Origin: a virus
Strand: one strand, 5' to 3'
IMG/VR virus record: IMGVR_UViG_3300023116_000162
Location: 1-34,138 of that record
DNA: 34,138 nt
The notes under the pieces were generated by a model. It had not been told where the DNA came from. It was given only the letters and a program-made list of their open reading frames with translations, and ran no database searches. Each line of letters opens with the position of its first letter. Position 1 is the stretch's first letter. Both the position numbers and the translations under genes were made by a program. Shown piece after piece: positions 1,530-19,625 of the stretch.

Positions 1530-3671
1530 ATGGCTATAGAATTCGATACATTTCCAAGCGCTGGCGGCGGTGGATCCGTCGGCACATTACAACAAGTTAC
1601 CGATCAAGGCGCAACGACGACGACCAATATTCAAACCGCGCAAATTACTTTAACCGGTGATTTACTAGCAAGTTCAAATAATGCGCGAACAATCGGCGAT
1701 GAAACAAATCGTTTTATTACTGCATATTCTGACTTGAACGGTGCGTTAAGATTTAAAGCAAAAAATGATTCTGGGGTCGCATTAGTTAAGGGTCAAGCTG
1801 TATATATTAAAGGCGTTTCCGGAACGGTTCCGACAGTCGATAAAGCACAATCGAACGCAAGCGGAACAATGAACGCCGCCGGCCTTGCTTTAACCGCTGC
1901 CAACGACCAGGCGGAAGTTCAGATTATTACATTCGGAAATTTAAATTCGGTCGATACATCTTCATTTAATGCTGGCGATGTTCTTTATATTAGTTCATCA
2001 ACGGCCGGCGGACTTGTAAATTCAGCGCCGACCGGCGAAAGTAATTTGATTCAAAATATCGGCGTCGTTGTTCGAAGTCATGCGACCGATGGTGTTATTA
2101 AAGTTTCTGGCGCTGGTCGTTCGAATGCAACGCCGAACTTGGATAATAATAAATTATTTCTTGGAAATGGATCGAATCAAGCGGTTTCAACGGCATTAAG
2201 CGCGATTAACTTATCGTCGTTTAATGATGATTTAAACGCGTTAATTTCTACGAATAATTTAAGCGATCTTAACAACGCATCAACCGCGCGAACGAATCTC
2301 GGACTCGGAACCGCTGCAACTCAAGACGTCGGAACGTCGGCGAATAATGTTGTTCAATTAAACGCCAGCGCACAATTACCAGCGGTCGACGGTTCGTTAT
2401 TAACGAATATTACAGCGACAGATAGCACAAAGCTAGCGATCGCGAATAATCTAAGCGATCTTAACAACGTCGCCACCGCGCGAACGAATCTCGGACTCGG
2501 AACCGCCGCAACTCAAGATGTCGGAACAAGTGCGAATAACGTTGTTCAATTAGATGGAACCGCGAAACTTCCGGCGGTCGACGGTTCGCAATTAACGAAC
2601 ATTAGTCCGACCGGCGCTTTGTTAATCACGAATAATCTAAGCGATCTTAATAACGCAACGACAGCGCGAACTAATCTCGGACTCGGAACCGCCGCAACTC
2701 AAGACGTCGGAACGTCGGCGAATAACGTTGTTCAATTAAATGCAAGCGCACAATTACCAGCGGTCGACGGATCATTATTAACGAATATTACGGCGACAGA
2801 TAGCACGAAACTAGCGATCGCAAACAATCTAAGCGATCTTAATAACGTCGCGACGGCACGAACTAATCTCGGACTCGGAACCGCCGCGACTCAAGACGTC
2901 GGAACAAGTGCGAATAATGTTGTTCAATTAAATGGAAGCGCACAGTTACCAGCGGTCGACGGATCATTATTAACGAACATTACGGCGACAGATAGCACAA
3001 AGCTAGCGATCGCGAATAATCTAAGCGATTTAAATAACGTCGCTACCGCGCGAACGAATCTCGGACTAGGTACCGCCGCGACTCAAGACGTCGGAACAAG
3101 TGCGAATAATGTTGTTCAATTAAACGCCAGCGCACAATTACCAGCGGTCGACGGATCATTATTAACGAACGTTACGGCGACAGATAGCACAAAACTAGCG
3201 ATCGCGAATAATCTAAGCGATTTAAATAACGTGGCGACGGCTCGAACGAATCTCGGACTAGGTACCGCTGCGACTCAAGACGTCGGAACGTCGGCGAATA
3301 ACGTTGTTCAATTAGATGGAAGCTCAAGACTTCCGGCGGTTGACGGTTCGCAGCTTACAAATTTACCAAGTTCCGGCGGTGGCTTTACATATCAATCGAT
3401 AACGTCCGCATCATCGCCAGTTTCGGCGGTTGCTAGTTATCATTATTCGGCGGATACGTCCGGCGGTGCGATAACTGTAAATCTTCCGGCTTTAAGTGGC
3501 GTTACTGCCGGAACCGAAATCCGTTTTAAATTAAAAACGGCCGGCAATAATTTAACTTTAGACGGCAATTTAACGGAAACAATCGACGGAAGCGCGACAT
3601 ATATTTTAAGCGTTCAGAATCAAGCCGTAACTTGTGTATCCGACGGCTCCGGAAACTGGGAGATAATCTAA
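1530..3671 (+). CDS. Tail fibre protein with six 64-residue repeats
   Basis: This 713-aa protein has a unique N-terminal region (1-240) with a glycine-rich start (SAGGGGS) and a beta-rich section resembling those of many phage virion proteins. Next come six tandem repeats of about 62-64 residues (about 242-610), each beginning NNLSDLNN and containing ARTNLGLGTAATQDVGTSAN and LPAVDGS.LTN. A beta-rich C-terminal domain of about 100 residues closes it, with DGSATYILSVQNQ and ending SDGSGNWEII. The NLSDLNNxxTARTNLGLG element is a common phage fibre shaft motif. The protein probably trimerises into a fibre that reaches the host surface. AAGGATT lies upstream of the ATG. Repeat number could vary by recombination. 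Confidence 0.8.
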   Translation: MAIEFDTFPSAGGGGSVGTLQQVTDQGATTTTNIQTAQITLTGDLLASSNNARTIGDETNRFITAYSDLNGALRFKAKNDSGVALVKGQAVYIKGVSGTVPTVDKAQSNASGTMNAAGLALTAANDQAEVQIITFGNLNSVDTSSFNAGDVLYISSSTAGGLVNSAPTGESNLIQNIGVVVRSHATDGVIKVSGAGRSNATPNLDNNKLFLGNGSNQAVSTALSAINLSSFNDDLNALISTNNLSDLNNASTARTNLGLGTAATQDVGTSANNVVQLNASAQLPAVDGSLLTNITATDSTKLAIANNLSDLNNVATARTNLGLGTAATQDVGTSANNVVQLDGTAKLPAVDGSQLTNISPTGALLITNNLSDLNNATTARTNLGLGTAATQDVGTSANNVVQLNASAQLPAVDGSLLTNITATDSTKLAIANNLSDLNNVATARTNLGLGTAATQDVGTSANNVVQLNGSAQLPAVDGSLLTNITATDSTKLAIANNLSDLNNVATARTNLGLGTAATQDVGTSANNVVQLNASAQLPAVDGSLLTNVTATDSTKLAIANNLSDLNNVATARTNLGLGTAATQDVGTSANNVVQLDGSSRLPAVDGSQLTNLPSSGGGFTYQSITSASSPVSAVASYHYSADTSGGAITVNLPALSGVTAGTEIRFKLKTAGNNLTLDGNLTETIDGSATYILSVQNQAVTCVSDGSGNWEII
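2253..3366 (+). repeat. Six tandem ~192-bp coding repeats in the fibre shaft
   Basis: The codons for NNLSDLNN recur at 2253, 2445, 2631, 2823, 3015 and 3207, giving intervals of 192, 186, 192, 192 and 192 bp. The 186-bp interval is a variant unit lacking two codons (it reads SPTGALLIT where the others read TATDSTKLAIA). Copies are very similar at DNA level, with scattered synonymous changes, which suggests recent tandem duplication or ongoing gene conversion. Confidence 0.9.
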
Positions 3672-8790: not shown

Positions 8791-9516
8791 ATGAATGAAT
8801 TCGAATTACAAGACAAAATCATTCGATCTAAAAATCTATCAGTACGCGATAGATTTATCATGATCGCAATGTTAAAAAAAGTCGATTGGTCTACCTGGTC
8901 CGGCCAAATCACACAATCATATTTAAATAGATATACTGGCGTTTCGATGTCGACTATCAAAGCAGCTTTAAAGAATCTTGAGTCTATGAAATGGATAACA
9001 AGAACGACTCAAAGAAACGGCGCGCGTAATACTCCGACTATTATAAACATCAACGTCGAACATATATTAAAAGTTCACGGTGTTAAAATGAACGGGTCAA
9101 CTTCAACGGGTGAAAATGAACGGGTGAAAATGAACGGGTCAACTTCAACGGGTGAAAATGAACGGGTGAAAATAAACCACAATACAATAGATATAAACAA
9201 TAATAATAAAACAATAAATATAAACAATAATAATAAAACATATATAACGCGCGCGGAAGCTTTAGAACATACGTCGAATTTATCGTTTAATAATCTTGCT
9301 CATCTTTTAGACGAACGAAATAAGGTCCCGCTTCATATTCTTAACGCTGGTCATAGACGAAGCGAGATCGAACGACGTTTTAATAATTCCGATCTTGTAT
9401 CGAATCAATATAATCAATTCGAACGCGAATCAATATTCGAGAAATTTAAAAAAGATGAAATCGCCGAAGATTTTGAAATTTACGGTCATGATTCTAAGAT
9501 TGTTAAAAGTTGGTGA
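8791..9516 (+). CDS. Replication initiator-like winged-helix protein (O-like), contains origin
   Basis: This 241-aa protein probably binds the phage origin. Residues 1-90 form a helical DNA-binding region with a winged-helix look: SVRDRFIMIAML, then SYLNRYTGVSMSTIKAALKN as helix-turn-helix, and a WITRTTQRNGARNTPT wing. The middle (about 100-152) is low complexity, with NGSTSTGENERVKM twice and an Asn-rich DINNNNKT/NINNNNKT pair. These are the direct translation of origin repeats in the DNA. A helical C-terminus follows and may contact the helicase loader. It is immediately upstream of the DnaC-like gene. The arrangement equals lambda O-P. AAAAAGGG sits six bases before the ATG. Confidence 0.7.
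   Translation: MNEFELQDKIIRSKNLSVRDRFIMIAMLKKVDWSTWSGQITQSYLNRYTGVSMSTIKAALKNLESMKWITRTTQRNGARNTPTIININVEHILKVHGVKMNGSTSTGENERVKMNGSTSTGENERVKINHNTIDINNNNKTININNNNKTYITRAEALEHTSNLSFNNLAHLLDERNKVPLHILNAGHRRSEIERRFNNSDLVSNQYNQFERESIFEKFKKDEIAEDFEIYGHDSKIVKSW
9091..9174 (+). repeat. Origin iterons: six 14-bp direct repeats inside the initiator gene
   Basis: AACGGGT starts at 9091, 9105, 9119, 9133, 9147 and 9161, exactly 14 bases apart. Units alternate between AACGGGTCAACTTC and AACGGGTGAAAATG (last unit AACGGGTGAAAATA). A degenerate seventh copy may precede at 9077. Because 14 is not a multiple of 3, the motif is read in three different frames, so conservation is at DNA level and not for the protein. 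Together with the AT-rich block at 9191-9240 this is a lambda-type replication origin. Binding by the encoded protein is inference. Confidence 0.8.
9191..9240 (+). repeat. AT-rich duplicated block beside the iterons (DNA unwinding element candidate)
   Basis: A 23-bp sequence beginning ATATAAACAATAATAATAAA occurs at 9191-9213 and again at 9218-9240, a 27-bp offset. The stretch 9181-9246 contains almost no G or C. Its placement directly after the iterons matches the unwinding region of lambdoid origins. The 27-bp offset is 9 codons, giving the repeated Asn-rich peptide. The unwinding role is inference. Confidence 0.7.
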
Positions 9517-9518
9517 TT

Positions 9519-10430
9519 ATGAACGATTTAAAAAAATTAGGTGAAGAAGTTAAATTAAAGTCTATGATCATTGCATTCAATGAATTATTAAATGATCCAA
9601 ATCGCATAAAGCCGGAGCCGCCAACATTTAAGGATTGGACGAACTACGATCCAGATTATTATCATTTAAATGGATTATTAAAAACTGGTCGAAATCGAAC
9701 GTTAACGGCGATTGATCCGGCTTGTGGATATTGCGTCGAAGGTTATGAATATATTCGCGACGGTATTCATCCGAACGCTATATCATGTCGTAATTGCGGA
9801 AAATTAAGGAAATCATTAAATCGATTGATTCGCGCTAAGCTGCCGAATGATGCGATTAACGCTTGTATCTCCGATTATGAATTCGATAGTAAAGATCAAG
9901 AAAACGCATTTTATCATTTAATGAACTGGTCGCGCGATTCTATGATTCCGCCGGGTCTATTAATGTATGGCAAGCCCGGAAACGGTAAATCAACGCTATT
10001 ATATATTATAGCTAAACATAAAACCGCCGATGGATATAACGTTAAATACGCGCATCATTATCATACATTTGAACAACAAAAATCATCTTGGAATAAAAAA
10101 AACGGTTCGAATCATTTAGATAATTTTTTATATGGTGTCGATGTTCTTCTATTAGATGAATTCGGCGGTCTTGGCGGCGGAACAAAGAATTATTCGGATT
10201 GGTTTAAAAATACGACGATAGAATTTATTGGTTCGATTTATGAGCGATGGAAAGCTGGTCGAATGGCCGTCGTTATTACTACGAACGTTTATCCGTCGCT
10301 CATGAAGAATACTTTATTCGATAATAATTACGCAGTACTTTCAAGAATGCAAGATATGTTCAAGCATCCGATTGAAATTAAAGGACCGGATCGAAGGCCG
10401 GCGCTTAATCTCCATTCAGCTTGGAAGTAA
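9519..10430 (+). CDS. DnaC-like replicative helicase loader (AAA+ ATPase)
   Basis: From ATG 9519 this is 303 aa; a TTG at 9510 would add three residues. Four cysteines at residues 69, 72, 90 and 93 (CGYC and CRNC) form a likely zinc site before the ATPase core. Walker A is GKPGNGKS at 151-158 and Walker B is VLLLDEFGG at about 209-217. A long insert and VVITTN (sensor 1) follow. This is the DnaC/IstB/DnaA-like build, so it would load host DnaB at the phage origin. The gene follows the initiator with 2 bp between them, and its 3' end overlaps the leftward deaminase gene by 26 bp. No phage helicase is visible, so host DnaB is the expected partner. Confidence 0.85.
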   Translation: MNDLKKLGEEVKLKSMIIAFNELLNDPNRIKPEPPTFKDWTNYDPDYYHLNGLLKTGRNRTLTAIDPACGYCVEGYEYIRDGIHPNAISCRNCGKLRKSLNRLIRAKLPNDAINACISDYEFDSKDQENAFYHLMNWSRDSMIPPGLLMYGKPGNGKSTLLYIIAKHKTADGYNVKYAHHYHTFEQQKSSWNKKNGSNHLDNFLYGVDVLLLDEFGGLGGGTKNYSDWFKNTTIEFIGSIYERWKAGRMAVVITTNVYPSLMKNTLFDNNYAVLSRMQDMFKHPIEIKGPDRRPALNLHSAWK

Positions 10431-10890
10431 ATTCATAAAATTTATCATCCTGGTAAACGATCAAAATATTATTTTGCATTAAATACCGGATACCAGCTTT
10501 CGAATAATTGTTACTAATTGGAACGACGACGCGAGTTATTCCGCAATGATGAATCATCTTCGCGCATGCTAGGCAAGGATTGACCGAAACGAATATCGTA
10601 CAACCGGATAACATGATTCCGCGTCGACTCGCGTTCGCTATGGCGTTTAATTCGGCATGATGACAACCGATTTCGGTTCGTGTTCCGGATTGAACTTTTA
10701 ATCGTTCACGATCGCAGCCGGATCGACCGCAAAATCGACTAGGTGATTTTCGCGGCGGTCCATTAAACCCGGCGGAAATTGGATTATTATTATGATCGAT
10801 GATAAAAGCGCCGACTTTATTTCGCGGACAAATCGACATTTCGGAAATTAAACGCGCGTGTTTCATCCAATGATCAAGCCATTTCGACAT
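10405..10890 (-). CDS. Deoxycytidylate (dCMP) deaminase
   Basis: This 161-aa zinc enzyme converts dCMP to dUMP, the substrate for thymidylate synthesis. The deaminase motifs are clear: HAE at residues 78-80 with catalytic Glu80, and PCLAC at 105-109, so zinc is bound by His78, Cys106 and Cys109. An upstream CGRSGC (about 54-59) and a second His before HAE fit the dCMP deaminase/ComEB group and its extra zinc site. AAAAGG precedes the ATG. It lies 66 bp downstream of thyX in the same leftward unit, so the two form a dTMP pathway. Its end overlaps the helicase loader tail-to-tail. Confidence 0.9.
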   Translation of the reverse strand: MSKWLDHWMKHARLISEMSICPRNKVGAFIIDHNNNPISAGFNGPPRKSPSRFCGRSGCDRERLKVQSGTRTEIGCHHAELNAIANASRRGIMLSGCTIFVSVNPCLACAKMIHHCGITRVVVPISNNYSKAGIRYLMQNNILIVYQDDKFYEFTSKLNGD

Positions 10891-10956
10891 GATAAACCTT
10901 TTTTTTGAATTGAGACTATTTTAAAAGCAACCGTTTAATACTAATGTTTGAAACGA

Positions 10957-11619
10957 TCATTTATCATCATTTACACATAGATCTAAAACAAAATCAAAGT
11001 CCTTGTGATTTTGAATTAAAATTTTTGTCGCGATTGCGAAATCTCGAATTTCTTTTTGTGCATGAAGATCAAGACGAAGATTAAAAAAATGAATTAACGC
11101 ATGTAATGAACAAGTCCAATATGCCGATGAATATAATGATACCGGCAATAACATTCTAGCTTGTTCGCGACATACTCCTAAATCTAATAAACGTTCATAC
11201 GCATATTTCGCATCCTTTAGCAATGTTCTATAAATTTGATTCGCTTCATGTTGATTTAGAATATCGCCGCCGCTGCCTTGCTTAACATTGGGTATATGAC
11301 TTCGAAACGTTTCCGGTTCGTAAAATTCACAATCAAATTTAATATATCTTCCGCTGGCCTCATTCCAAGAACAACCGACTTGATGTTTCATCCATTGACG
11401 AAAAACAAAAATCGGCGCTTTGATATAAAAAGTAAAATGAATATGACGAAATGGCGAAGTATGGTTATTTTCCCATAAATATTTAATTAAATCTTTATCT
11501 CGCAATGATAAGACATCATTTTCGAAATCAGTTTTGTTGAATGATATTCGCGCGGAATCGACAATCTTTTTCGCGCTGCCGAACGAATCAATTAATTTTA
11601 CTTGCGATAATGTTTCCAT
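10957..11619 (-). CDS. thyX: Flavin-dependent thymidylate synthase ThyX
   Basis: This 220-aa enzyme makes dTMP from dUMP with FAD, NADPH and methylenetetrahydrofolate. The signature region is at residues 74-92: RQWMKHQVGCSWNEASGRY, matching the ThyX motif RHRx7S with conserved His79, Ser84, Asn86, Glu87, Arg91 and Tyr92. The two arginines of RHR are replaced by Lys78 and Gln80, which is unusual. An N-terminal helical section with SARISF and a HTSPFRHIHFTF segment also fit. AAAAGG lies before the ATG. It is transcribed leftward from the divergent operator region 11620-11722 with the dCMP deaminase. Confidence 0.88.
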   Translation of the reverse strand: METLSQVKLIDSFGSAKKIVDSARISFNKTDFENDVLSLRDKDLIKYLWENNHTSPFRHIHFTFYIKAPIFVFRQWMKHQVGCSWNEASGRYIKFDCEFYEPETFRSHIPNVKQGSGGDILNQHEANQIYRTLLKDAKYAYERLLDLGVCREQARMLLPVSLYSSAYWTCSLHALIHFFNLRLDLHAQKEIRDFAIATKILIQNHKDFDFVLDLCVNDDK

Positions 11620-11635
11620 AACATAACCTTTTTTA

Positions 11636-11705
11636 TTGACAAAAAAACAAAATTATATAATGATCAATAATGATCAATAATGATCATTATAATTTAAATT
11701 ATAAT
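11636..11705. promoter_or_regulatory. Divergent promoter/operator with three 10-bp TGATCAATAA repeats
   Basis: TGATCA occurs at 11661, 11671 and 11681, exactly one helical turn apart, within TGATCAATAA, TGATCAATAA, TGATCATTAT. A TTGACA is at 11636-11641 and TATAAT boxes are at 11656, 11688 and 11700; ATTATATAAT (11652-11661) gives a -10 in either direction. The 103-bp gap between thyX and the ribbon-helix-helix gene therefore looks like a shared divergent promoter with an operator. Tandem short repeats at helical spacing are typical targets of ribbon-helix-helix repressors. The TTGACA to TATAAT spacer is only 14 bp, so the exact promoter is uncertain. Confidence 0.65.
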
Positions 11706-11722
11706 ATAAAAAAAGGGAAAAC

Positions 11723-11887
11723 ATGAGTAACGAAATTAAAACTAATGTAACCGTTTATCTACCGGTTCCACTGGTAAGAAAGATAAACGACGGAGCGCGT
11801 TTAAATGTTTGTTCGCGATCCGAATTCGTACAACGTATTTTTAACGAATATTTCGAAACTAAAAGCAAAAAGGATAAATCAAAATGA
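11723..11887 (+). CDS. Ribbon-helix-helix (CopG/Arc-type) regulator, 54 aa
   Basis: This short gene reads MSNEIKTNVTVYLPVPLVRK and onward to SKKDKSK. NVTVYLPVPLVRKI is a typical RHH beta strand plus start of helix 1; GARLNVCSRSEFVQRIFNEYF gives the turn and helix 2. GGGA lies upstream of ATG 11723. Its stop overlaps the next ATG by 4 bp. Three 10-bp repeats lie just upstream, so autoregulation and control of thyX are likely. RHH proteins of this size serve as phage repressors, plasmid copy or partition regulators and antitoxins; which applies here is open. Confidence 0.75.
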   Translation: MSNEIKTNVTVYLPVPLVRKINDGARLNVCSRSEFVQRIFNEYFETKSKKDKSK

Positions 11888-12534
11888 ATACTAAAGTAAA
11901 ATCAAAAACAAAAACAATAATTCCCAAATTTACAAATTTATTGAAAATGAAAGGTGCATATGAAGCATTATTTGTTAAAGGTTATATGACAGAATTTAAA
12001 TATAAACTTTATGGAGAATACGAAGCGACCAGTGAAGAAAAATTATGCGCCGGGTTTATCGTAAGTAATAAAATCGAAAGTCATTCAAAAAAAGATAATC
12101 CTTGTTTGATTAAAATCGTACCTTCAAAAAGCGAATATTTAAGTCCGTATAAAATGTCAACAAAAGGCGCGACATTTAATAATAAGATTGATCGAATAAT
12201 TAAATATACTAACGTTACAATCATTATAAATTATAAATATTGGTCTAAATTAGACAATAAACAAAAAGGCGATTTCTTGATTGATCGTTTACCATTTCAT
12301 TTTCCAAGTAGAAAACAAGCATACGATCATATGATGAATGCGAAAAAATCAATTAAAGCTTGGAAAAAATATCAATGGGAAGAAGCTTGGACCGTTGATA
12401 ATAAAGGTAAAAAATGGCCGATTGGAGAATATAAAGAAATCGATTATCCGCCGGTTATTGATTTATCCAAGTTGGACAATAATTTTAAAATAGATCTTTT
12501 AGATCAAGCTTTAACTTTAATCTATGAAAAATAA
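11884..12534 (+). CDS. Hypothetical Lys-rich protein coupled to the RHH gene
   Basis: This 216-aa protein is basic, with 18 or more lysines in its first 90 residues, and soluble. It has an aromatic-rich second half (YWSKLD, then WKKYQWEEAWTV). I do not recognise the family. It overlaps the RHH regulator by 4 bp and precedes SSB by 9 bp, which suggests either a nucleic-acid-related early function or the effector half of a regulator-effector pair. Nothing in the sequence decides between these. It uses fewer CpG codons than the structural genes. Confidence 0.5.
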   Translation: MNTKVKSKTKTIIPKFTNLLKMKGAYEALFVKGYMTEFKYKLYGEYEATSEEKLCAGFIVSNKIESHSKKDNPCLIKIVPSKSEYLSPYKMSTKGATFNNKIDRIIKYTNVTIIINYKYWSKLDNKQKGDFLIDRLPFHFPSRKQAYDHMMNAKKSIKAWKKYQWEEAWTVDNKGKKWPIGEYKEIDYPPVIDLSKLDNNFKIDLLDQALTLIYEK

Positions 12535-12543
12535 CGGTGAATT

Positions 12544-13116
12544 ATGAGTTTAAAAAATGAATATCGTTGTATCGGTCGCCTGGTCGCCGATCCAGAATAC
12601 ATCGAACAAGCTAACAAAACAAAATTTAGAATCGCAATCAATGAACGATATAAACAAGACAAAATCGTTACGTTTATGAATTGTGTAGCATTCGGTAATG
12701 TCTCGAAATATATTCGTGATTATATTAAAAAAGGCGATCTTGTGACATTACGCGGACCGCTGCGAACATATACATACGAAACCCGCGACGGAGAAAAACG
12801 AAATGAAATAAATATTTTGATCGATGAAATTGAAAGATTAACTTATAACGCTTCGAACGAATCGCGATCGAATACAGTAACTAAAAACGAATCAATACAA
12901 GACGATAAACGTTATAAATGGAAATCTGTCGATTGGTCAAATCAAAATATTCCTAAATGGAACGATGCTTTAACGCCAGCGGCGGAACCGCCACCGGTAC
13001 CGACAAAAGAAAATCCTTACGCTTGGCGCGATCATGATCCGGAATATTATAAAAGACGTTCTTACGAACAAAATAAAACGATCATTCCGTCGAGTAACGA
13101 TTATGATCCGTTTTAA
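12544..13116 (+). CDS. ssb: Single-stranded DNA-binding protein
   Basis: This 190-aa protein has an N-terminal OB fold (about 1-100): LKNEYRCIGRLVADPEYIEQ, then FRIAINERY, TFMNCVAFGNVSKYIRDYIK and KGDLVTLRGPLRTYTYE, the classic SSB order. A flexible middle rich in Asn, Pro and Lys follows, and the tip NDYDPF resembles the acidic DxDxPF tail through which SSB recruits replication proteins. It lies downstream of the RHH unit and upstream of the terminase. It would protect single strands at the phage fork and could partner the RecT-like protein. Confidence 0.9.
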   Translation: MSLKNEYRCIGRLVADPEYIEQANKTKFRIAINERYKQDKIVTFMNCVAFGNVSKYIRDYIKKGDLVTLRGPLRTYTYETRDGEKRNEINILIDEIERLTYNASNESRSNTVTKNESIQDDKRYKWKSVDWSNQNIPKWNDALTPAAEPPPVPTKENPYAWRDHDPEYYKRRSYEQNKTIIPSSNDYDPF

Positions 13117-16216: not shown

Positions 16217-17647
16217 ATGAACTATAGACGACGACAACGCGCGCGACATATAAGAGCGTTCGACGCGAATTATCATCAATACGGAATAAGCGGAACGCAA
16301 TTATCCGGCGGCCGAATAAGTGGATACGAACAAAATACAAAACTAATCGGTCGGAACTGGATCGCGGAAGCCGAAGAAATGTTACGTACGGATCCGATAG
16401 TTTTTCGTTGTTGGCATTTATTACGCCAAACATTGCTTTCGGCGACGTGGCGTTTCGAACCTGGTATCGAAGATGATCCGACGGCGGAAATTTACGCGGA
16501 TTATGCGAATGAATGTTTCGGCTTCGACGGTTATTCCGGCCAAATGTCTTTATCGTTTGAAGAACAATTATCATATTTATTACAATTTATTCCAATCGGT
16601 TATCGATACGCGGAAGAAATATATAAATCTGGAAAAGACAAAAACGGAAATCCGCGAATATGGTTATGTAAATTCGCGGATCGCGAACCGTCGTCGCATG
16701 ATCGCTGGCTATCTCGCGACGGTCAAATCTTGGACGGTGTAATTCAAATAATGAATAATGTAAAAGTTAAGCCGGAACCGATACCAGCGAACAAACTTTT
16801 ACTATTAACATTCAATAAAACCGGATCGAATTTCGAAGGAATGGGAATGCTTCGGCCGGCTTGGTTTTTTTGGCGAACAAAACAAAATACATCGACAATG
16901 ATGTCGATCGGCGTTGATCGTTGGGCGATACCGACGCCGCGAGTAACTGTCGATCGTTCGGTCGCAGAAATGCAAGGACTAAGCGACGGCGATATCGATT
17001 CGATGATCGACGACGCGGAAGCGCAGGCCGCCGCATTCGTCGCAGGCGAACAAGCATATCTAATAGAAAACGCGGCGGTTAAATTTGATTCGTACGGCGT
17101 TCAACCGGCGCAAGCTGCCGGACCTTTAGAAGTAATCAAAGAATGCGATAATCAAATCAGTCAAGCCTTTTTCGCTCAATTCTCAAATTTAGGAATAAGC
17201 GACACCGGCGCGCGATCCGTCGGCGAAATACATTTATCTGTATTTAGACGACTCGCGATAAACTTGTGTGATTTGGTCGCCGGGCAAATCAACGGACCGG
17301 ACCGGGCCGGAGGTGGTACCATCGGCCGATTGATTCGTTTCAATTTCGGCGAAGATGACGCGTCGAAGCTTCCGCGTTTAGTTCATCAAGGTTTAGATAA
17401 TGATACATTAGCCGATTCGTTTGAAAAACTAGAACCGCTTGTTCGCGGTGGCATATTAACACCGGACGATAATTTAGAACGATCGATTCGCGGTAAACTT
17501 GGAATCGGTGAACTTCCGGAAATGGCCGAACGTTCACCGTTCGAAAGGTCGGTCGTATCGAATCCGCGTTTACAAAGTGGAAATTATCAATCGGCGTTAT
17601 TAGCGGAACAACTGATTATGCGAAAAAAGCGAAATAACAATGAATAA
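16217..17647 (+). CDS. Portal protein (DUF935/Mu gp29-like)
   Basis: This 476-aa protein is expected to form the 12-fold ring at the head vertex. An RTDPIVFRCWHLLRQTLLSA segment near residues 56-76 followed by WRFEPG fits DUF935-type portals, as does the KLLLLTFNKTGSNFEGMGML region, where such proteins read F...G.P.G.GLLR. Later GVDRWAIPTPRV and a C-terminal helical region around EIHLSVFRRL also agree. The length and position after terminase match. It overlaps the next gene by 8 bp. The Mu-like portal type is by pattern recall, but portal as such is well supported. Confidence 0.85.
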   Translation: MNYRRRQRARHIRAFDANYHQYGISGTQLSGGRISGYEQNTKLIGRNWIAEAEEMLRTDPIVFRCWHLLRQTLLSATWRFEPGIEDDPTAEIYADYANECFGFDGYSGQMSLSFEEQLSYLLQFIPIGYRYAEEIYKSGKDKNGNPRIWLCKFADREPSSHDRWLSRDGQILDGVIQIMNNVKVKPEPIPANKLLLLTFNKTGSNFEGMGMLRPAWFFWRTKQNTSTMMSIGVDRWAIPTPRVTVDRSVAEMQGLSDGDIDSMIDDAEAQAAAFVAGEQAYLIENAAVKFDSYGVQPAQAAGPLEVIKECDNQISQAFFAQFSNLGISDTGARSVGEIHLSVFRRLAINLCDLVAGQINGPDRAGGGTIGRLIRFNFGEDDASKLPRLVHQGLDNDTLADSFEKLEPLVRGGILTPDDNLERSIRGKLGIGELPEMAERSPFERSVVSNPRLQSGNYQSALLAEQLIMRKKRNNNE

Positions 17648-19625
17648 AAAAAGAACGCAAGCTCAAACACCGGCGCCGAAAAAAGACCAGGTAAAAGGCA
17701 GCTCAATAAATAAACCCGGTTCCGCTTCCGGTTCGCGCGGCGGAATTAAAATATCGGAAGCAATCGAAAAGGCATTAGTTAATTTAAGAGATAAACATAA
17801 TGATCGATATAAATCACCATCGAAGCGCGTTGATTTAGGAACATTAAAAGCGGTATACCGTCGCGGCGCCGGTGCGTTTAGTACTTCGCATCGTCCCGGA
17901 ATGAGTCGCGATCAATGGGGTTTAGCGCGTGTTAAGACGTTCTTAAAATTGGCCGGTACTGGCGAACGTAAAAAAGCATATAATACAGATCTTGATTTAT
18001 TGCCGAAAGGTCATCCGCAACGCAGCGAACCGGAAAAGAAAACGGAATCGGTCGCGCTGGCTATTCCTAAGAAATACGAACATATCGATTTTAATCCGCC
18101 GGTCGGCGCACAAAAGGCAGCGGCGAAAGCATTAGAAGAAAGATCTAAACAAACGCCGTCGAATCGCGGTATGACTTCCGTAGGATTGGCGCGTGCGCGG
18201 GACCTGGCGAACGGTCGCAAGTTATCACCGGAAACCGTTAAACGAATGTTCAGTTATTTTTCACGTCATGAAGTCGATAAAAAATCGCCGGATTGGTCGA
18301 ACTGGTCAAAAGGTCGTCAAGCGTGGGAAGGATGGGGCGGCGACGCCGGTTATTCTTACGCGAAACGCGTTGTCGAACAAATGAAGAAAGCGGATAAAAA
18401 AATGCAATCATTACGCGCATATGGCGAAGCGATACAATTAAATGATAATTCGGATTATGATGTTCCGGAATCCTTGACGATCGGCAAGCCATTTAAAACG
18501 TTGGCATACGGTCAAGTATCAAGTAGATTATCCGGCGAAAAGATCGGAAAAGAAATCGATAAAAAATTATTAGAAGAAATCGTACGCGTATTCAAAGAAA
18601 CGCAAGATGAAACGGCCGTAATTATCGATTGGAATCATTCGTCAAGTCCATTTAATAATTCATCTATTGCGCCGCCGGAAACGTCCAACGCGCTTGGAAG
18701 AATTATCGATTTACAAATTAAAGACGATGGACTTTACGCAATACCAGCTTATAACGAAAAAGGTCTTGATATTGTTAAAAGCGCCGGCGGCGTTTTATGG
18801 TCAAGTCCCGAATATATCGACGGCGATGTTTATTCGCGTTCAACCGGCGAAAAAGTCGGATCCGCGCAATTACTCGCTATTACTCTAACGCCGCGACCGG
18901 CGCAATCACAAAACAAAATTGATATTGTTACACTTTCGGAGAATTTAACGATGGACGAACAAATATTAGAATTACAAGCGAAGCTTGAAGAAGCTTTGTT
19001 AAAATTACAACAAAAGGACGCACTTGTTAAAGAGCTTGAATCGAAGTTAAAAGACAAGGAAGAATCATCTTCAATGAATGAGCATTATGACGACGATAAA
19101 AAGAAAATGTCGGAGCATGAAGACGAAGAAAAGAAAAACCAAATGATGGAAGACGAAGACGAAGACAAAGAGAAGATGTCGGAGCATGAAGACGAAGACG
19201 AAAAGAAAAAGAAAATGAACGAAGCGGCGTTATTAAGCGAAGGATTTTCGATTCAAATGTTTAATGAAATGAAACGTGAACTTGATATCGTTCGTGATCA
19301 ATTACATTGTGAAAAGCGCGATAAGGCAGTTCAAGAACTTTTAAACGACGGTCGTATTTCTCCGAATCAAGTCAATCATGCGAAACAAGCATTCGACAAA
19401 AAAGACGAAGTTCCGGCGTTTTGGCAAATGTTAAGCGAAGCGCCTAAAAATTCCGCTGTTAATCTTTCGGAAATTGGTCATAGTGCGACATTAAAAGAAA
19501 CTCAAGAAAAGACTTTAGTACAAAAAATTAAACTTTTGTCTGAAGAAAAAAGCATCGGTTTTGACGAAGCTAGACGTTTATACGCAGCTCAAAATCCGAA
19601 CGAATATTCAAAATCATTTAACTAA
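17640..19625 (+). CDS. Head maturation protease/scaffold fusion (Mu gpI-like, three parts)
   Basis: This 661-aa protein appears to combine three parts. Residues 35-255 contain basic helical modules (RDKHNDRYKSPSKRVDLGTL; SNRGMTSVGLARARDLANG) ending in a Trp/Gly-rich WGGDAGYSYAKRVVEQM block often found attached to phage head proteins. Residues 260-440 resemble Mu gpI-type prohead protease: IDWNHSSSP, LGRIIDLQIKDDGLYA, WSSPEYIDG and LLAITLTPRPA. From about 440 onward there is a coiled coil and an extreme Glu/Asp/Lys region with repeated MSEHEDE, then a helical C-terminus, as expected for a scaffold cut out during maturation. It lies between portal and capsid genes, as such proteins do. Confidence 0.75.
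   Translation: MNKKRTQAQTPAPKKDQVKGSSINKPGSASGSRGGIKISEAIEKALVNLRDKHNDRYKSPSKRVDLGTLKAVYRRGAGAFSTSHRPGMSRDQWGLARVKTFLKLAGTGERKKAYNTDLDLLPKGHPQRSEPEKKTESVALAIPKKYEHIDFNPPVGAQKAAAKALEERSKQTPSNRGMTSVGLARARDLANGRKLSPETVKRMFSYFSRHEVDKKSPDWSNWSKGRQAWEGWGGDAGYSYAKRVVEQMKKADKKMQSLRAYGEAIQLNDNSDYDVPESLTIGKPFKTLAYGQVSSRLSGEKIGKEIDKKLLEEIVRVFKETQDETAVIIDWNHSSSPFNNSSIAPPETSNALGRIIDLQIKDDGLYAIPAYNEKGLDIVKSAGGVLWSSPEYIDGDVYSRSTGEKVGSAQLLAITLTPRPAQSQNKIDIVTLSENLTMDEQILELQAKLEEALLKLQQKDALVKELESKLKDKEESSSMNEHYDDDKKKMSEHEDEEKKNQMMEDEDEDKEKMSEHEDEDEKKKKMNEAALLSEGFSIQMFNEMKRELDIVRDQLHCEKRDKAVQELLNDGRISPNQVNHAKQAFDKKDEVPAFWQMLSEAPKNSAVNLSEIGHSATLKETQEKTLVQKIKLLSEEKSIGFDEARRLYAAQNPNEYSKSFN

Follow-up and report, generated by a model that had tools for sequence, protein, structure and literature searches.

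Does a phage whose genome is known only as a sequence record carry its replication origin inside the gene for the protein that would act on it? The question is raised by IMG/VR record IMGVR_UViG_3300023116_000162, of which positions 1 to 34,138 (34,138 nucleotides, here called the window) were analysed, and in particular by a short repeat within the gene for an O-like replication initiator, P0001. Positions 9077-9246 are very probably a phage replication origin located inside its own initiator gene, lambda-like in general kind but distinct in the length and sequence of its repeat; binding and activity are predicted from sequence. We reach this reading because the array is exact and constrained at the DNA level, an unstable tract follows it, an O-like and a DnaC-like gene are present, and the arrangement recurs in relatives. 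The features of the region, all on the + strand, are as follows.

8791..9516, +, O-like replication initiator gene, P0001, 241 aa (phrog_678, E 5e-12; phrog_270, E 9e-11)
8791..9081, +, predicted winged-helix DNA-binding domain, aa 1-97 (AlphaFold2, Foldseek)
9077..9090, +, degenerate upstream iteron unit (10/14 identity by eye; within the repeat reported by Tandem Repeats Finder, TRF)
9085..9243, +, linker-coding segment, aa 99-151, holding the array and the unwinding element (low AlphaFold2 pLDDT)
9091..9174, +, array of six 14-bp iterons with an AACGGGT core, in two 42-bp super-units (repeat and pattern searches)
9175..9246, +, predicted AT-rich DNA unwinding element (DUE) (nearest-neighbour energies)
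9179..9229, +, five ACAATA motifs in the DUE, at 9179, 9184, 9197, 9211 and 9224 (5 of the window's 20 + strand copies)
9181..9234, +, 27-bp AT-rich direct repeat, two copies, 93 % identical

Exact copies of AACGGGT start at 9091, 9105, 9119, 9133, 9147 and 9161 on the + strand, exactly 14 bp from start to start. They fall in frames 0, 2, 1, 0, 2 and 1 of the open reading frame (ORF) 8791-9516, and the core is translated as NGST, STGE and ERVK; six copies every 14 bases, read in all frames, is what the first-pass annotation of this DNA had described. The pattern AACGGGT-N7-AACGGGT gave 5 matches against 0.24 expected in shuffles (up to 2 mismatches were permitted; all 5 were exact). The extended iteron is TSAACGGGTSA (S = G or C), and the six copies make up two 42-bp super-units of three copies each (TRF: 42 bp x 2.4, 94 %).

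The step from one super-unit to the next is an in-frame duplication of 14 codons, as would be seen if the repeat had arisen at the protein level or by slippage, as a tandem duplication of a low-complexity linker with no function as DNA. A linker of this kind could tolerate duplication: the array and the AT-rich tract are predicted to code for a disordered segment, with AlphaFold2 confidence low from about aa 100 and pLDDT below 50 at aa 114-151. The repeat was compared with a null in which the peptide was kept and synonymous codons were redrawn 20,000 times at the frequencies seen in this phage. Identity at lag 14 was 63/79 against 40.1 ± 3.5 under recoding, and the core count was 6 against a null maximum of 3; both observed values were reached in 0/20,000 recodings. 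A single 42-bp unit, where in-frame duplication cannot contribute, also gave 0/20,000, and within it the 14-bp repeat encodes three different peptides. The cores impose GGG, CGG and GTG, which make up 3, 2 and 3 % of the respective synonymous choices in this phage and are among its rarest codons. As synonymous recoding never reproduces the array, and the rarest codons are used, the array is maintained at the DNA level and neither the peptide nor codon usage explains it, which bears out the earlier argument from a period that is not a codon multiple. The recoding test rejects a protein-only repeat, and arrays encoding unrelated peptides occupy the same place in 17 relatives (see below); slippage without a DNA function is extremely improbable.

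Directly 3' of the iterons, 9175-9245 is 87 % AT. Nearest-neighbour energies rank 9187-9246 as the least stable of all 60-mers in the whole 34-kb window, and also first among 27,300 fully coding 60-mers.

The matches of P0001 to phrog_678, a family annotated as 'replication initiation O-like', and to phrog_270 span its winged helix-turn-helix (wHTH) domain. Against Pfam Phage_rep_O (PF04492), P0001 scored 19.1 bits, and because this is under the gathering cut-off of 28.7 it is not filed in that family, yet it would work like O. AlphaFold2 modelled aa 1-97 mostly at pLDDT above 90, with elements in the order H-H-H-H-E-E-H. In a Foldseek search of the PDB the fold of this segment matches MarR-type winged helices (best E about 1e-3); the search of viral models gave HTH proteins and a putative replication protein O. 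Solved structures searched by sequence gave weak generic HTH matches only.

Protein searches of viral contigs with P0001 and with P0002, the product of the adjoining gene, returned a near-identical virus only, and a search of genomes with P0002 gave no match. Relatives were gathered via the portal protein (80 contigs); with the duplicates L178, L157, L173 and L223 set aside, 17 same-group relatives have an initiator gene with an array after the wing. The first-pass annotation had expected periodic repeats here in relatives with the same initiator, which these 17 bear out; their arrays encode unrelated peptides. The periods are 15, 18, 21-24, 45 and 54, and the iterons, which differ between relatives, include GGTCAAAATGACC, GTATCAAACTTGATAC and GTGTCATCTATGACAC. 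In phmmer comparisons with P0001, E was below 1e-6 for 15 of the 17; L214 was weaker (E 5e-4), and the L186 initiator was matched by the wHTH profile alone (E 1e-4). In 16/17 relatives (17/18 with the window included), the lowest-stability 50-mer immediately 3' of the array lies within the lowest 2 % of the gene and is usually the gene minimum; we estimate that chance would place that minimum in the 55-position search interval in about a tenth of cases. A helicase loader gene is directly downstream of the initiator gene in most syntenic relatives.

Among 15 initiators, array similarity tracks wHTH similarity when C-terminal similarity is controlled (partial r 0.52, permutation p 0.0002). Because array similarity follows wHTH similarity, this co-variation supports the array as the putative wHTH target. 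In one pair, L169 (1134-1961) and L174 (2346-3077), the C-terminal part is 93 % shared, the wHTH domain 46 %, and few array 6-mers are common; the contrast looks like an exchange of a cassette comprising recognition domain and array.

Fifteen DUEs of the group contain 37 coding-strand copies of ACAATA, in all three frames, against 12.6 expected by synonymous recoding (maximum 21 in 2,000). Ten non-redundant DUEs contain 25 against 8.0 expected (maximum 16 in 5,000), and the excess persists (0/5,000) when the DUE's own codon usage serves as the null. ACAATA is the most over-represented hexamer, found in 9/10 non-redundant DUEs; it was chosen after inspecting the same sequences, so these counts somewhat overstate its significance. 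It is over-represented in the DUEs of the window, L174, L177, L156, L190, L204, L215, L182 and L231, though their iterons differ, and the L169 DUE has CAATA five times in its place. On these counts, a coding-strand ACAATA/CAATA motif in the DUE is common to diverged relatives beyond codon expectation. The RK2 initiator TrfA binds one DUE strand sequence-specifically (PMC4081077), and by analogy the phage protein may read the DUE strand in the same way. We tentatively suggest for this group of phages, as a possibility that we would not yet favour, a two-layer origin code, in which fast-changing iterons are swapped with the wHTH cassette and a slow, strand-specific ACAATA/CAATA motif in the DUE is read single-stranded by conserved machinery, both within one disordered linker. 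Recognition domain and iterons that change together while the DUE motif stays would provide a natural experiment on the co-evolution of initiator and site under reading-frame constraint.

From these features we infer a course of protein binding, opening, loader recruitment, a role for the DUE motif and frame-preserving array growth. The N-terminal winged helix would bind as an ordered multimer to the 14-bp iterons, whose core is TSAACGGGTSA, and the resulting strain would open the adjacent DUE (9175-9246). ACAATA repeats on one exposed DUE strand may help to hold the open strand, and the C-terminal part of the initiator would recruit the DnaC-like loader (9519-10430), by which the replicative helicase would be delivered. 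Because the array and DUE code for a disordered linker, the origin DNA could function while being translated, and the array would change in length only by steps that keep the reading frame (here 42 bp = 3 x 14).

In a variant compatible with the origin reading, the bound unit would be the 42-bp super-unit or a hyphenated dyad (TTCA-ACGGG-TGAA) and not each 14-bp copy. Iteron copies 2 and 5 make TTCAACGGGTGAA dyads, clear dyads are seen in many relatives (with a dyad excess in the arrays of about ten), and composite periods of 45 or 54 bp also occur. However, it is the core that stays unchanged across the six copies, and the window array, with two TTCA-N5-TGAA dyads only, shows no excess of dyads (2 with arm 4, where 1.4 are expected, and none with arm 5). 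The excess is likewise not significant in L215, L229, L202, L169, L222, L214 and L186. We consider this variant unlikely.

Two further replication genes are found downstream.

9519..10430, +, DnaC-like AAA+ helicase loader, P0002 (phrog_50, E 9.5e-21; IstB and AAA Pfam)
12544..13116, +, single-strand binding protein gene, replication region (Pfam SSB, E 1.5e-16)

The loader gene adjoins the initiator gene, directly downstream of it. The loader and SSB regions are separated by genes for dCMP deaminase and ThyX on the minus strand (10405-11619). Beyond them, three exact copies of the 10-bp ATAATGATCA occupy 11657-11686, in an intergenic region that is the second least stable segment of the window and lies upstream of ORF 11884-12534.

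The resemblance of the initiator fold to MarR-type regulators allows the array to be seen as an operator, where the winged-helix protein would bind the repeats to repress or roadblock its own operon, with the origin elsewhere, for example near 11,650, where 11,641-11,715 is nearly as unstable as the DUE segment and carries the 10-bp x3 repeat. Iteron plasmids often combine autoregulation with initiation, which also counts for the operator. However, the array is 300 bp into the gene and has the DUE on its 3' side, and promoter-like sites in the region are no more frequent than by chance. The profile families are O-like, not repressor, the loader gene is adjacent, and the layout of array and DUE recurs in relatives. 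An operator with the origin elsewhere is therefore very unlikely.

Several points weigh against an origin at 9077-9246. The relatives are not independent, and the co-variation is to be read with near-duplicate sequences, a rough C-terminal alignment and array ends set by hand in mind. The exact 14-bp AACGGGT iteron is without independent comparative support, as judged by sequence searches: ACGGGT x3 at 14-bp spacing was found at 13 loci in viral contigs, 0 of them in an initiator gene. The 42-bp duplication means that three of the six copies are probably recent. The contig of the near-identical virus, IMGVR_UViG_3300010296_003728 (L001/L149), opens within the initiator gene just past the array and DUE, and its start looks as if the assembly broke at the repeats. 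Cumulative GC skew, a check proposed in the first-pass annotation, is near-monotonic with no turn at 9.1 kb; it is uninformative on the origin site and decides neither way. No terminal repeat indicative of a circular genome was found in the window. The earlier proposal of an origin embedded in the initiator gene, as in lambda O, is supported computationally by the O-like gene, the DUE and the 17 relatives.

An in-gene origin of iterons and DUE is already known in kind (lambda-type), and the window adds a probable member. In lambda the origin lies within the initiator gene O, where the iterons adjoin an AT-rich segment, on experimental evidence (PMC6022878, PMC7466680). The window shares with lambda and Shiga toxin (Stx) phages the in-gene iterons, the AT-rich region beside them, an O-type initiator and a loader gene next to it. 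Stx phages gained two iterons via a 13-residue in-frame addition (PMC7466680), which parallels the 42-bp step seen here. The window differs from lambda in its six 14-bp direct units without dyad excess, their unrelated sequence and its DnaC-like loader, and the hyphenated inverted-repeat symmetry of each iteron, lambda's own feature, is absent from the window. Because its iterons are without dyad excess, we file the window as a putative in-gene iteron and DUE origin working like lambda's, and not as a lambda-family iteron set. In SPP1 oriL, direct repeats inside gene 38 are bound by its own product, gp38, beside an AT-rich DUE and with a separate loader, gp39, as shown experimentally (PMC6316719). 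The likeness is one of layout (in-gene direct repeats, DUE, separate loader), and SPP1 differs in having a second origin, oriR. In the iteron plasmids RK2 and F the origin is not inside the initiator gene, and the initiators (TrfA, RepE) belong to families other than the window's. Direct iterons and repeated motifs in the DUE are shared with these plasmids, whose Rep proteins are specific for one of the two DUE strands (PMC4081077).

In a wider sample of 55 non-redundant O-like relatives, a significant array inside the gene is present in 51. The commonest best periods are 15 (14 cases), 22 (11) and 17 (8), further periods are 11, 12, 16, 18, 21, 23 and 24, and 24/51 are not codon multiples. 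The 14-bp period was found in 0/51, and the window's 14 is unique in the sampled relatives. The DUE signal is weaker in this wider sample (median rank 0.13). Enterobacterial O-like genes have 15-bp arrays at the equivalent position. Those of Klebsiella and Escherichia (L024-L026) share with the window an O-like wHTH domain, an array directly after the wing and a spaced core, TGACNCGTCA, that resembles TSAACGGGTSA in form; they differ in their 15-bp, codon-multiple period and in having a methylase gene next instead of a loader. In L057, L060, L067 and other Pseudomonas O-like genes, a second short repeat, GAACCRTCA, lies downstream of the main array.

The first-pass annotation had called 14 bp unusual against 18-19 bp. 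This stands in that no other 14-bp array was found in these samples; however, the relatives span 11-24 bp plus the composite 45 and 54, and there is no uniform norm to depart from. Helix rotation, which had been held special to 14 bp, does not set the window apart. By arithmetic, at 14 bp (1.33 turns) each iteron is turned about 120 degrees from its neighbour and three units span 4.0 helical turns at 10.5 bp per turn, but the spacings of many relatives also rotate the sites and are equally unphased, and such placement is not distinguishing by itself. O-like origins vary far more in iteron spacing (11-24 bp in these samples) than would be expected from lambda. The portion of the open-licence literature covered yielded no description of a phage with 14-bp iterons arrayed inside a gene. 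With the window comes a divergent phage group, rich in syntenic relatives, in which candidate origins are readable from sequence alone and from which testable DNA sites are predicted for uncultivated phages.

Two other repeats were recorded in the window. A 192-bp repeat, present in about 5.7 copies (84 %), occupies 2251-3352 within ORF 1530-3671, which may encode a modular tail protein. Repeats of 33-36 bp, rich in Glu, Asp and Lys codons, lie at 19080-19223, inside ORF 17640-19625, which matches Mu-like protease I.
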